42,327 nucleotides of DNA, from contig CADEGL010000028.1 of assembly GCA_902826885.1 (NCBI GenBank), positions 1 to 42,327 of the forward strand, read 5' to 3'. Below, piece after piece: positions 22,076 through 28,255 of the stretch. The translations under genes and the position numbers were made by a program. The DNA is from an uncultured Alphaproteobacteria bacterium (lineage in GTDB: Bacteria; Pseudomonadota; Alphaproteobacteria; CADEGL01). The notes under the pieces were generated by a model. It made no database searches. It saw only the letters and a program-made list of their open reading frames with translations, and was not told where the DNA came from. Numbering within the stretch: position 1 is the stretch's first letter; the number at the start of each line of letters is the position of its first letter.

Positions 22076-23230
22076 ATGGCGTCCGCCATCGCGACCGAAC
22101 AACCTTTCCCCACCGCCGAGCTAGCCGACCGGTTGGCACGCGTTCGCGGTGCGATGACAGGCGCCGGTGTCGATCTCCTCATCGCCTCCGATCCCAACGA
22201 TATCTATTACCTGACCGGCGCGCGTGAGTTGGGCGGCCTCATCCAGATGGCGCTCCTGGTCCCGGCTTCCGGCGCCATGGCTTTCGTAGGCCGCGCGGTG
22301 GACGCCGTCGCTTTCGTGGCACACACGGGCAACAACGCGATCCACCCCTATCGCGATCACGAGAACGCCGAGGCGGCCGTCGGCCGCGCGATTACCGCGC
22401 TGGGCGCGGCGGGCGGGCGCATCGGCTACAGCGGCTCTGCGCTCTCCGTCGCCACCTTGAGCGCGCTGCGCCAAGCTCTTCCCCAAGCAACCTGGGTGGA
22501 TGCCACGCGTTTCATCTGGGATATCTCGGCCCTCAAGTCGCCGCGCGAACTCGACTACATGCGCGAAGCCGCGCGCATCAACGCCAAGGCGCTGGACCGT
22601 GCCATCGCCTCCATCGGGCCCGGCGTCAGCGACAACCACATCGCCGCCGAACTTTATGCCGGGATGCTGGAGAACGGCAGCCACCCCATGACCCATTTCA
22701 TGTTGGCCACGGGCCCGCGAACGGCCGTGGTTCATGCGACGTTCAACGACCGCAAGCTCGAAAAGGACGACATCGTGCATTTCGAGTTCTCGGCCACGCG
22801 TTATCTCTACACCGCGCCGCTCATGCGCACGGCGACATTGGGTACGCCCAACGCAGAGGCCGTAAAGCTGCATGACGGAGCGCTGGCCGCGGTCGAGGCG
22901 GCGATGGCCACCATCCGCGAAGGCGTGACGTCGGGTGAAGTAGACCGCGCCGCCAATGCGGAGCTGGAGAAGCGCGGCATCCGTCAATGGCACTATCACC
23001 GTACGGGCTACATGGTGGGCATGGCGGCTGGCGGATCTTGGGCTCTTGGCCATGTGGGCGCGCTGCGCGAGGCCGATCCCACCGTGCTCAAGGAAAACAT
23101 GACGTTCCACCTGCCCATGGTGCTGTTCAAGCCCGGCGCGGCGGGCGCAGGCCTTTCCGAGACCGTGCGCGTCACGCGTACGGGCGTGGAAGTGCTGACC
23201 GACTACAAGCGGGAGTTGGTGAAGCTCTAG
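22076..23230 (+). CDS. M24-family hydrolase, probably metal-independent (creatinase/ectoine-hydrolase-like)
   Basis: A 384-residue pita-bread protein with an N-terminal creatinase domain (residues about 12-150, FPTAELADRLARVRGAM and NDIYYLTGARELGG) and a C-terminal M24 domain. Three of the five metal ligands of Xaa-Pro peptidases are missing: the first Asp is E237 (VHFEFSA), the second is A247 (TAPLMRT), and the GMVFTIEPG-type Glu is absent (NMTFHLPMV). H308 (YHRTGYMVGM) and E362 (SETVRV) remain. This suits the metal-free creatinase and ectoine hydrolase (DoeA) branch rather than a peptidase. ATG 22076 has CCGGAG upstream. Confidence 0.85.
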   Translation: MASAIATEQPFPTAELADRLARVRGAMTGAGVDLLIASDPNDIYYLTGARELGGLIQMALLVPASGAMAFVGRAVDAVAFVAHTGNNAIHPYRDHENAEAAVGRAITALGAAGGRIGYSGSALSVATLSALRQALPQATWVDATRFIWDISALKSPRELDYMREAARINAKALDRAIASIGPGVSDNHIAAELYAGMLENGSHPMTHFMLATGPRTAVVHATFNDRKLEKDDIVHFEFSATRYLYTAPLMRTATLGTPNAEAVKLHDGALAAVEAAMATIREGVTSGEVDRAANAELEKRGIRQWHYHRTGYMVGMAAGGSWALGHVGALREADPTVLKENMTFHLPMVLFKPGAAGAGLSETVRVTRTGVEVLTDYKRELVKL

Positions 23231-24111
23231 CGCCCCTTCAGCATCTTGATGATGCCGGAGAAATCCGTTTCCGCCTCGCCCATGTTGCAGAACATGGCAT
23301 AGAGCGCGGCCGCTTCCGCTCCCAACGGCGTGGCCGCACCGGACGATGCCGCGGCTTCCTGCGCCAGACGCAGGTCCTTGACCATCATCGCCGCGGTGAA
23401 GCCCGCCTTGTAATCGCGGTTCGACGGCGCGGCCGGCACCATCCCCGGCTCCGGACAATAAGTCGTCAGCGACCAGCATTGGCCCGACGATTTCGCGCTG
23501 ATCTCGAACAGCTTCTTGGGGTCGAGGCCGAGCTTATGCGCTAGCGCGAACGCCTCGCCCACGGCGATCATCGAGACGCCCAGGATCATGTTGTTGCAAA
23601 TCTTGGCCGCCGTGCCCGCCCCCGACGGGCCGGCATGGACCACCGTCTTGCCCATGGTGCGCAGGATCGGCTCCGCGCGCGCGAAGGCCGCCTCGCTGCC
23701 GCCGACCATGAAGGTCAGCGTGGCGGCATCGGCGCCCGAGACACCGCCCGAAACAGGCGCATCCAGCATCTCGAAGCCCGCCTTGCCCGCGGCCGCGGCA
23801 ACGGCGCGCGCGCTGTCCACATCCACGGTCGAGCAATCGATCAGAAGCGCGCCCTTTGGCGCCACACCGAGCACGCCGTTCGCGCCGGTATAAACCTCGC
23901 GCACGTGCCTGCCAGCCGGCAGCATCGTGATCACGATTTCAGCCTTAGCCGCGTCGGCTGCCGTCGCACAGGCCTTGGCGCCATCCTTTTGCGCCTGCGC
24001 CAGCTTGTCCTTGGCCAGATCGAAGGCGGCCACCGCGTGTCCTTGCTTCATGAGGTTGCGCGCCATGGGTCCGCCCATGTTGCCCAATCCAATGAATCCG
24101 ATCTCCGCCAT
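23227..24111 (-). CDS. mmsB: 3-hydroxyisobutyrate dehydrogenase
   Basis: MmsB oxidises 3-hydroxyisobutyrate to methylmalonate semialdehyde with NAD+ in valine breakdown. The 294-residue protein has the Rossmann start IGFIGLGNMGGPMARNL, DAPVSGGVSGA (117-127), the catalytic K170 in AAKICNNMILG, and KDLRLAQEAA. Start ATG 24111; a GTG-like upstream frame of five codons is not used. Downstream it shares its CTAG stop tetramer with the convergent M24-like gene. It is the last gene of the valine operon. Confidence 0.95.
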   Translation of the reverse strand: MAEIGFIGLGNMGGPMARNLMKQGHAVAAFDLAKDKLAQAQKDGAKACATAADAAKAEIVITMLPAGRHVREVYTGANGVLGVAPKGALLIDCSTVDVDSARAVAAAAGKAGFEMLDAPVSGGVSGADAATLTFMVGGSEAAFARAEPILRTMGKTVVHAGPSGAGTAAKICNNMILGVSMIAVGEAFALAHKLGLDPKKLFEISAKSSGQCWSLTTYCPEPGMVPAAPSNRDYKAGFTAAMMVKDLRLAQEAAASSGAATPLGAEAAALYAMFCNMGEAETDFSGIIKMLKGR

Positions 24112-24130: not shown

Positions 24131-24868
24131 TCACTGGCCGGCGCGCGGCAGCGGTAGATTCTTCACCTTTTCACCGAATGCGGCCTGCGGCTCGGATGGT
24201 TTTTCGTTCAAGCCCGCTTCGAGCCGTTCGATGCAGGCCCGCGTCCGGCCGAACAATTCGGACCACGTCGCCGAGCGGTCGATCTCGGCGAGCAGGCACC
24301 CATCGAAATAATTGTAGCGAAGCCGGAATTCGCAACCGAACGACACGCGCTCCTTGCGCGCCGCCGTCAGGACAATGCGGTCGTCCGCCACGACACCATC
24401 GCGCAGGAACGTTCCCGAATGGCAGGCGGACACCACCACGACGGCGGGACGGCCCGCGCAATATTCGTTCACGACGCGGCCCATCATCTCCGGCGACAAG
24501 GTCTGCTCGTTGTCCTTGTCCTGGCTCATCAGCAGCCCCGTCTCGGCGCCGTGCGAGGTGAAGTACAGAAGGCAGCCGTCATTCGCGCCGATATTGAGAG
24601 ACTTCAGAGCCTCATCGAGATTATGCGCCGTCGCCCGGATTTCGGAGCGCGACGCGCGGGGTGAGGCCGACAGGACGCGGATATCCTTGACGCCGCGCTG
24701 ACGGAGCTGCCCGGACAGCGTTGTGACGGCGTTTTCGAAGACAGGAACCGAATCGTCCCCGGCCACCAGAACGGCCTTCCATGTCACTTGCTCCTGCGCC
24801 TTCGCACCGACACCGCCCGCCAGGACGGCGAGCAAAACGGCGGCGGCCAAGCGCACGGTCATGTTCAT
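24131..24868 (-). CDS. Exported caspase-like C13-family cysteine peptidase
   Basis: A 245-residue protein with a signal peptide (MNMTVRLAAAVLLAVLAGGV, then AKAQE, about residues 1-26). The mature part matches the C13 (legumain/GPI-transamidase) branch of the caspase-like fold: catalytic H106 in YFTSHGAETG and C149 in VVSACHSGTF, then DDRIVLTAARKERVSFGC, typical of bacterial C13 members, so it is probably active in the periplasm. ATG 24868 overlaps the stop of the hydrolase gene upstream (ATGA), implying coupled translation; mmsB starts 19 bases after it. Known bacterial members are mostly uncharacterised; its link to valine catabolism is unexplained. Confidence 0.85.
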   Translation of the reverse strand: MNMTVRLAAAVLLAVLAGGVGAKAQEQVTWKAVLVAGDDSVPVFENAVTTLSGQLRQRGVKDIRVLSASPRASRSEIRATAHNLDEALKSLNIGANDGCLLYFTSHGAETGLLMSQDKDNEQTLSPEMMGRVVNEYCAGRPAVVVVSACHSGTFLRDGVVADDRIVLTAARKERVSFGCEFRLRYNYFDGCLLAEIDRSATWSELFGRTRACIERLEAGLNEKPSEPQAAFGEKVKNLPLPRAGQ

Positions 24869-25902
24869 GAGAAATCCAGATCGCCGCCGGGCAACGGCGC
24901 GAACCAGGCCTCGATATCGGCGTCGGAAACCTCGGCCAGCGAAGCTGGCCGCCATTTCGGCGCGCGGTCCTTGTCGATCACCGCGGCACGCACGCCTTCA
25001 TAGAAATCGTGAGCGGCCATGGCACGCTGGCTCAGGCGGAACTCCATCACCATGCAGTCCTCGAATGCCATGGTGCGGCCGTGCTCCAACTGGCGCAAGG
25101 TCACCTTCTCGCAGGTCGGAGCCTTCTCGCCCATGGCCGTTCGCGCGCCCTTCGCCCACTCCGAGCCGTCGGCTTCCAGCGCGTTCTGGATCGCTTCTAT
25201 GGACGACTCGGCGAAGCAGCGGTCCATGGTATCGCGATCCTGCTCGAGCGGCGCTTTACCCGGAGAGACAGCAAAGCGCGCGACGACATCCGTTACGGCG
25301 TCTCCGGCGTTTTTTCGAAGAGCGTCGATCAACGAGCCGAGCGCGCCTGAGGGCACGTAATGCGTTGCGATGCCCGCATAGAGACAGTCCGCGGCTTTGA
25401 TGCGTGCGCCGGTCAGGCCAAGATAGAACCCGACGCGGCCAGGACTACGCGGCAGGAAGTAACTGCCGCCCACGTCGGGGAACAAGCCGATGCCGGTTTC
25501 GGGCATGGCGAACAACGTGCGCTCGGTGGCGATGCGGTGCGAACCGTGGACCGAAACACCGACCCCGCCGCCCATGACGACACCGTCGATCAGCGCGACA
25601 TACGGCTTCGGATAGCGCTTGATGAGGCGGTTGAGACGGTATTCCTCGCGGTAAAAGTCCGCCGTCAGCGTGCCGGATTTGGATTTGCCCGAATCGTACA
25701 GCGCGCGGATGTCGCCTCCGGCGCAGAACGCCCGGTCGCCCGCGCCCTGGATCAGAACACAACGCACGTTCGGATCGCCCATCCAGGCGCGCAGTTGCTT
25801 ATCCAGGGCGCGCACCATTCCCAAGGTCAGCGCATTCAGCGCCTGGGGCCGGTTCAACGTGACCAGGCCGACGCCGCCCGATGCCTCGAATAGAATTTCC
25901 AT
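24865..25902 (-). CDS. 3-hydroxyisobutyryl-CoA hydrolase
   Basis: An enoyl-CoA hydratase-family enzyme of the HIBCH branch, which hydrolyses 3-hydroxyisobutyryl-CoA to 3-hydroxyisobutyrate in valine degradation. The 345-residue protein shows RPQALNALTLGMV, the oxyanion-hole FCAGGDIRALYD, MGGGVGVSVHGSHRIAT and AMPETGIGLFPDVGGSYFLPR, the signature of this branch, and ends in the family C-terminal segment FYEGVRAAVIDKDRAPKW. It is 1 base after the dehydrogenase gene and overlaps the C13 peptidase gene by 4. Confidence 0.93.
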   Translation of the reverse strand: MEILFEASGGVGLVTLNRPQALNALTLGMVRALDKQLRAWMGDPNVRCVLIQGAGDRAFCAGGDIRALYDSGKSKSGTLTADFYREEYRLNRLIKRYPKPYVALIDGVVMGGGVGVSVHGSHRIATERTLFAMPETGIGLFPDVGGSYFLPRSPGRVGFYLGLTGARIKAADCLYAGIATHYVPSGALGSLIDALRKNAGDAVTDVVARFAVSPGKAPLEQDRDTMDRCFAESSIEAIQNALEADGSEWAKGARTAMGEKAPTCEKVTLRQLEHGRTMAFEDCMVMEFRLSQRAMAAHDFYEGVRAAVIDKDRAPKWRPASLAEVSDADIEAWFAPLPGGDLDFS

Positions 25903-25903
25903 T

Positions 25904-27043
25904 TCAGCCGCCCAGCAGCCGGCGGGCGACGATCAGGCGCATGATCTCGTTGGTGCCTTCCAGGATCTGGTGCACGCGCGCATCGCGCAGATAGCGCTCG
26001 ATCGGGAAGTCGCGCAGATAGCCGTAGCCGCCGTGGATTTGCAGCGCCTCGTTGCAGACGGCGAAGCCCGCGTCGGTGGCGAAGCGCTTGGCCATGGCGC
26101 AGTGGAGCGTGGCGTCCGGGTCGCGCGCATCCAGCTTGGACGCCGCGCGGTGGATCAGAAGACGGGCCGCCTCCAGTTCCGTCGCCATGTCGGCCAGCTT
26201 GAACTGGAGCGCCTGGAACTCGGCCAGCTTGCGCCCGAACTGGCTGCGCGTCTTCATGTGCTCGCGCGCCAGGTCGAGGCAGGCCCGCGCCGCGCCCAGA
26301 GAGCAAGCGCCGATATTCAGCCGCCCGCCGTCCAGCCCCATCATCGCGATCTTGAAACCATCGCCTTCCGCGCCCAGCCGGTTCGCGACCGGCACGCGGC
26401 AATCCTCGAAAATCACCGCCGCCGTCGGCTGGCTGTTCCAGCCCAGCTTGGTCTCGCGCTTGCCGAAGGACAGGCCCGGCATGTCTTTCTCGACCACTAG
26501 GGCCGAGATGCCCTTCGCCCCCTCGCCGCCCGTGCGCACCATGCAGAGATAGAGATCGCTGGTGGAACCGCCGGAGATAAACGCCTTGCTGCCGTTGAGC
26601 ACGTAATGATCGCCGTCCCTCGCCGCGCGGGTCTTGAGCGCGGCGGCATCCGATCCCGCGCCGGGTTCGGTCAGGCAATAGCTGGCGAAATGCTCCATGC
26701 GCGTGAGGCGGGGCAGCCAGCGTTGACGCTGCGCCCCGTCGCCGAACGCGTCGATCATCCATGCGGCCATGTTGTGGATCGAGATATAAGCCGCCGTGGA
26801 GGTGCAGCCCGCGGCCAGTTCCTCGAAGATCAGCGCGGCATCGAGGCGCGACAGCGCCGTTCCGCCCACGTCGTCTTTCACATAGATGCCGCCGAAGCCG
26901 AGGGCGGCCGCCCTGCGCAACGCTTCGACCGGGAAAATGGATTTCACATCCCATTCGGCGGCATGGGGCGCCAATTCGGCCGCCGCGAAGTCGCGCGCGG
27001 TGTCGCGGAATGCCTGCTGCTCCTGGCTGAGTTCGAAGTCCAT
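25904..27043 (-). CDS. Isobutyryl-CoA dehydrogenase-type acyl-CoA dehydrogenase
   Basis: A 379-residue FAD acyl-CoA dehydrogenase. It has [58 protein letters not shown], the [23 protein letters not shown] helix and the catalytic E362 in [15 protein letters not shown]. Position ahead of HIBCH and MmsB makes isobutyryl-CoA, from valine, the likely substrate. ATG 27043 is preceded by CAGG; the longer frame reaching 27655 is antisense to hemB and rejected. It is the first gene of the operon. Confidence 0.92.
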
Positions 27044-27105
27044 GCCCTGACCTGCGTTCGGGCGCGTAACAGCCGGATTTCCAAGGCTTTCCGCGCGACG
27101 GGGCG

Positions 27106-27133
27106 ATCTTAGGCCCACCCCCCACCCTGTCAA
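27106..27133 (-). promoter_or_regulatory. Probable promoter of the valine-catabolism operon
   Basis: On the minus strand a perfect TTGACA (27128-27133) is followed at 16 bases by TAAGAT (27106-27111), about 60 bases upstream of the dehydrogenase ATG. The region also carries the hemB promoter on the other strand, possibly TAGGAT at 27185-27190, with no good -35. Confidence 0.55.
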
Positions 27134-27187
27134 CGCGCGCCCGCCATGCGAACGGCGCGGGTACACGCGTGAAGAGGTTTCCGCTAG

Positions 27188-28255
<1,068 letters not shown>

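Follow-up and report, generated by a model that had tools for sequence, protein, structure and literature searches.

A Predicted Exported C13 Peptidase Gene Inside an Alphaproteobacterial Valine Operon Is Probably an Envelope-Related Passenger

The analyzed window, that is, the whole stretch of 42,327 nucleotides from an uncultured alphaproteobacterium, contains four genes in the minus-strand order acyl-CoA dehydrogenase (ACD), 3-hydroxyisobutyryl-CoA hydrolase (HIBCH), C13 peptidase, and mmsB. These genes and the adjacent features are listed below, starting from the divergent flank.

27227 to 28255, plus strand: hemB (porphobilinogen synthase), the divergent flank of the operon, with the same divergent neighbour in genomes G001, G002, G003, and G046
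27106 to 27133, minus strand: promoter-like site TTGACA-N16-TAAGAT ahead of ACD, a consensus match (10/12)
25904 to 27043, minus strand: ACD, isobutyryl-CoA dehydrogenase-like by context, with Pfam Acyl-CoA_dh domains
24865 to 25902, minus strand: HIBCH (PRK05617, 450 bits vs. a cut-off of 274; ECH_2, 444 bits)
24865 to 24868, minus strand: ATGA stop/start overlap, with the HIBCH TGA lying on the C13 ATG
24131 to 24868, minus strand: predicted exported C13 (legumain-fold) cysteine peptidase of 245 aa (Pfam Peptidase_C13, AlphaFold2 model, conserved dyad)
23227 to 24111, minus strand: mmsB, 3-hydroxyisobutyrate dehydrogenase (HIBADH model TIGR01692, 414 bits vs. a cut-off of 291.6)

With ACD ahead of HIBCH, the valine operon has one gene more than a previous sequence-only reading of this DNA had given. 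The position of ACD ahead of HIBCH is conserved in several other alphaproteobacteria, and mmsA is located at another place in the same genome. Both gene contacts described in that reading were recovered exactly, namely the ATGA overlap and the 19 bases between the C13 stop codon (ending at 24131) and the mmsB ATG (24111), which is preceded by the ribosome site GGAGGGG. A reading of the C13 gene as a 274-aa ORF is merely an in-frame upstream extension into HIBCH. The site ahead of ACD is the sole promoter-like site found in the operon region by a consensus scan; both hexamers and the spacer length are kept in G001, and the site is degenerate in G002. A separate promoter of the C13 gene, which the sequence-only reading regarded as evidence against coupling, was not found by the consensus scan, which has little power in DNA of 65% GC. 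Terminator-like matches are fewer than the chance number. The C13 gene is very probably co-transcribed with its operon and translationally coupled.

In the window's family and in G046, hemB is located divergently beside the ACD operon (window positions 25904-28255), and this neighbourhood is an older linkage. The canonical alphaproteobacterial ACD-HIBCH-mmsB operon encodes the three enzymes of the window operon in an identical order, with hemB divergent as in G046, whereas the window operon differs by the presence of C13 between HIBCH and mmsB.

The HIBCH-C13-mmsB order, together with the ATGA overlap, was also found in G001, belonging to the same genus (83% identity for C13), and in G002, belonging to a second genus of the same family (about 50%). 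In total, the arrangement was found in three species from two genera of the window's family (referred to as f1), and the three C13 proteins of these operons form one clade (support 100/99). The dN/dS value is 0.14 for C13 and 0.12 for HIBCH, indicating similar purifying selection. The draft genome consists of 134 contigs, of which the window is one, and in such a setting an artefact of assembly or annotation might be suspected, or else a decayed insertion; this explanation is extremely improbable, as the arrangement is repeated in two further assemblies, the catalytic dyad is intact, and dN/dS is low. A chance ORF is ruled out by the three species and the dN/dS value, and so is an insertion specific to one strain, which had been considered as a finding against coupling. 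In G002, a 17-base tandem repeat, present in six copies, lies between C13 and mmsB (L015 6656-6759).

No match to C13 was found in G003, belonging to a third genus of the family. In this genome, contig C44 contains HIBCH followed by a DUF898 gene and by the start of a DUF7092-domain ORF running off the contig (L159 8776-10496), and contig C208 opens within an M48 peptidase gene that ends just before mmsB (L160 1-593). The simplest reading is that the order here is probably ACD-HIBCH-DUF898-M48-mmsB, across the contig break. The slot between HIBCH and mmsB would then probably hold another membrane/protease passenger.

The protein encoded at 24131-24868 belongs to the known peptidase C13 family (PF01650), with a profile score of 53 bits vs. 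the curated cut-off of 22.8. Both expected motifs, His-Gly and Ala-Cys-x-Ser-Gly, are present as TSHG at H106 and SACHSG at C149, and in an alignment with legumains of solved structure these two residues coincide with the catalytic His and Cys. Among 87 aligned family members, H106 is kept in all 87 and C149 in 86. A natural variant lacking the catalytic Cys, with Ser at the Cys149 position, was observed in a Dongia mobilis MAG (L037 2494-3222). By eye, the N-terminal sequence MNMTVRLAAAVLLAVLAGGVGAKAQ has the features of a typical signal-peptidase I leader, with a signal peptide of about residues 1-24, and a lipobox or hydrophobic leader was found by a crude script in 99 of the 103 family ORFs. 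Profile, leader, and family alignment together uphold the earlier description of an exported C13 peptidase with an intact H106/C149 dyad. In the family alignment, C99, C137, C191, and C212 are invariant and C179 is kept in 85/87 members; these five strongly conserved extra cysteines are compatible with disulfides of an exported protein. The leader suggests a periplasmic location, and the dyad suggests proteolytic activity. Weak matches to C13 or caspase-like proteins, below the cut-off, were also observed in the window's own genome, G000 (C76:2699-2926, C8:79725-79934, and C64:12097-12309).

The AlphaFold2 model of the protein, built from the alignment of 87 family members, has a mean pLDDT of 94.0 and the caspase/haemoglobinase fold of clan CD. 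The structures most similar to it are those of legumains, plant asparaginyl ligases, metacaspases, and GPI transamidase. The model matches the legumain fold in Foldseek with an E-value of 2.8e-12, and human legumain is superimposed with Z 22.9 and rmsd 2.8 over 204 residues at 17% identity. No close solved structure for the bacterial C13 family was found in the structural search. The protein resembles legumain, the asparaginyl endopeptidase of PF01650, in its fold, catalytic motifs, and export, but differs in two respects. First, its last residue, 245, corresponds approximately to legumain residue 288, so that the C-terminal LSAM prodomain of legumain proper, the role of which has been described (PMC4357240), is absent. 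Second, of the residues forming the Asn/Asp P1 pocket of legumain, Arg44/His45 apparently fall on F44/E45/N46 in a weak hand alignment. S176 and D189, both invariant in the family alignment, are plausible counterparts of legumain Ser216 and Asp231. Since the S1 residue Arg44 is seemingly replaced by F44 or an acidic D/E45, specificity for Asn would not be expected with confidence. Prediction of P1 specificity from sequence was given up, as the alpha-1 region has no secure alignment and the relative from Acinetobacter baumannii differs there.

The same fold is common to legumain, plant peptide ligases, and the catalytic subunit of GPI transamidase, PIG-K/GPI8 (8imx_K, Z 21.4), so a transamidase or ligase joining exported proteins to a partner can be envisaged, by analogy with GPI8 and the plant legumain ligases. 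The fold does not separate hydrolases from ligases, and nothing resembling the partner subunits of GPI transamidase was seen near the C13 gene. This role is very unlikely for the window protein.

The C13 family is widespread in Alphaproteobacteria and was also found in some Beta- and Gammaproteobacteria. In the genome scan (257 relatives), 79 loci were kept, and in the class search the family was present in 29 of 385 genomes. Caulobacterales and Rhodospirillales-like groups often carry it, and it occurs in Bdellovibrionota and Niveibacterium as well. Caulobacter vibrioides, which served as a control genome, also gave a C13 hit. The neighbours of C13 are lineage-specific. In the Dongia group, the gene is found with a MocR regulator, with a 4-base overlap. 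Other homes are dxs-tlyA-rlmD-[C13]-aroC, where RlmD was identified and dxs, tlyA, and aroC were named by eye; SspB-thioesterase (4HBT)-[C13]-beta-lactamase-like in Caulobacterales; APH-TetR-[C13] and glyoxalase-[C13] in Inquilinus and related organisms; and Ccr-[C13]-Mcd-like in family f4, Ccr being crotonyl-CoA carboxylase/reductase and the Mcd-like protein an acyl-CoA dehydrogenase of 550 aa resembling methylsuccinyl-CoA dehydrogenase (L069, L072, L138, and L139; Ccr by TIGR01751, 628 bits vs. a cut-off of 379). The gene was further found between a luciferase-like oxidase and a solute-binding protein, between an S11 D-Ala-D-Ala carboxypeptidase and an AccD-like protein, and with PALP among its neighbours. 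Within 200 bp of C13, the co-directional neighbours fall into 48 distinct clusters, a number that likely includes spurious ORFs. In these homes, co-directional genes often overlap by 4 bases or lie less than 50 bases apart, so that close coupling to an upstream gene is a habit of the C13 gene rather than a sign of valine metabolism.

Tandem C13 duplicates were observed at L040, L050, L057, L067, L145, and L152; at the last two loci, the copies have about 440-490 aa and an extra C-terminal region. An Inquilinus-like C13 locus, L027, comes from a record titled Mycobacterium sp. KBS0706, which is probably mislabelled.

Acyl-CoA or glutathione-thioester chemistry occurs in four or five of the C13 homes, a pattern noticed after the fact, and several homes other than that in the window, with Ccr/Mcd, 4HBT thioesterase, or fghA, might represent a shared theme. 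The C13 protein could accordingly be imagined as an envelope peptidase co-expressed with acyl-CoA/thioester metabolism and handling envelope damage or remodelling. The presence of HIBCH, Ccr/Mcd, 4HBT thioesterase, glyoxalase, and fghA neighbours in separate lineages speaks for this explanation, but the homes with MocR, RlmD, TetR, PALP, and the luciferase-like protein do not fit, and we regard it as unlikely. A query set for this chemistry matched 7 of the 48 neighbour clusters (nominal p about 4e-8); as the categories and queries were chosen after the neighbours were known and drawn from the neighbours themselves, the low background rate is circular, and this enrichment was rejected as evidence. 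The broader claim that bacterial C13 peptidases are recurrently and selectively coupled to acyl-CoA/thioester or electrophile-prone operons (HIBCH, Ccr/Mcd, thioesterase, glyoxalase, and S-formylglutathione hydrolase), the envelope protease being part of the response, is decidedly improbable.

For the slot between HIBCH and mmsB, searches for both genes were run in 372 class genomes each, and counts were made by hand from the coordinates. HIBCH and mmsB are adjacent on one strand, with a gap of less than 250 bp, too short for C13, in at least about 101 class genomes. Outside f1, at least 7 genomes have an insert of more than 800 bp. In G016 it encodes an enoyl-CoA hydratase, in G060 an apparently exported protein resembling hydrolases, in G273 an exported protein with Sel1 repeats, in G056 a polytopic membrane protein, and in both G067 and G280 an exported protein resembling methyltransferases; the insert of G189 contains no clear co-directional gene. 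C13 is not found among these seven inserts, and the class survey of alphaproteobacteria detected no C13 between HIBCH and mmsB outside f1. In G007, G008, G046, and G070, HIBCH and mmsB are adjacent and C13 is located at another site. The passengers at L213, L214, L216, L217, and L218 are mostly exported or membrane proteins; those at L213, L216, L217, and L218 have no Pfam family, and their exported or membrane status was assigned by eye. The slot repeatedly receives unrelated, mostly envelope, genes.

A component of the valine operon would be linked to HIBCH or mmsB across lineages, and for C13 this linkage was found only in f1; a conserved valine linkage was rejected on the basis of the class survey. 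The proposal of the sequence-only reading that C13 is coupled into valine catabolism therefore stands for operon position and overlap, and for conservation of the order in three species from two genera of one family, but its pathway part is not supported, in view of the restriction to f1, the diverse homes, and the other passengers of the slot.

Legumain-type enzymes are usually specific processing proteases. This tells against the suggestion, also made in that reading, that amino acids are released as a carbon source. In such a scheme, valine or branched-chain substrates would induce the operon, and the secreted C13 would help to supply it with amino acids released beyond the cytoplasm. The tight coupling conserved within the family and the location of an exported protease beside amino-acid catabolic enzymes, with mmsA elsewhere in the genome, agree with this scheme. 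However, the arrangement was not found beyond the family, C13 relatives occur with RlmD, MocR, TetR, and others, and no peptide or amino-acid uptake genes are present in the operon. No positive evidence for the scheme was obtained, and it is distinctly unlikely.

Little literature on prokaryotic legumains was found beyond a clan CD review and reviews on Acinetobacter, and no paper was found on HIBCH, a caspase, and an operon together. In two reviews (PMC5346588; PMC10203620, citing Li 2016), deletion of abrp, encoding a 'peptidase C13 family' protein of A. baumannii, is summarized as increasing membrane permeability and slowing growth; Abrp is also tied to drug susceptibility, and the exact mechanism is given there as unknown. 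This permeability phenotype is the one phenotype of a bacterial C13 protein in the literature found. The A. baumannii 'peptidase C13 family' protein compared here, very likely Abrp according to this annotation rather than to a locus tag, has 27.6% identity to the window protein over 213 aa (E-value 4e-12) and keeps both the catalytic His and Cys. The two are similar in the homologous catalytic domain and in a gene overlapping a metabolic gene, in A. baumannii fghA. They differ in that the A. baumannii protein, at 483 aa, carries a long N-terminal extension, membrane-spanning by eye, whereas the window protein is short and has a cleavable-type leader. At the A. baumannii locus (L224 2805-5070), C13 overlaps fghA by 32 bases. 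An export signal, either leader or lipobox, as would be expected for Abrp-like proteins, occurs across the C13 family; the deletion phenotype comes from the A. baumannii reviews. Together with the homology and the kept dyad, that phenotype favours a general envelope role, and the window protein is possibly similar to Abrp in role.

We consider it probable that the C13 protein is an envelope peptidase riding the ACD-HIBCH-mmsB operon for expression, with no role as a step of valine catabolism. The occurrence of the same protease in many unrelated operons elsewhere makes a general envelope enzyme the most likely identity. An older ACD-HIBCH-mmsB operon would have acquired the C13 gene in the common ancestor of the family or in that of two of its genera. 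Expression would now start at the operon promoter, with translation of C13 coupled to that of HIBCH through the ATGA stop-start overlap, and the product would perform a general envelope job, processing an exported or membrane partner by proteolysis. Selection for co-regulation could explain the retention of the ATGA overlap in two genera equally well.

A valine role of the window C13 is not supported. Close coupling within an operon does not necessarily imply a shared pathway, even where a stop-start overlap is conserved; one gene riding many operons, together with one slot holding different passengers, provides a clean example. The analysis also brings to attention a widespread, well-conserved, exported bacterial family of the legumain fold, whose many lineages with different operon partners form a natural experiment for the common role of C13.
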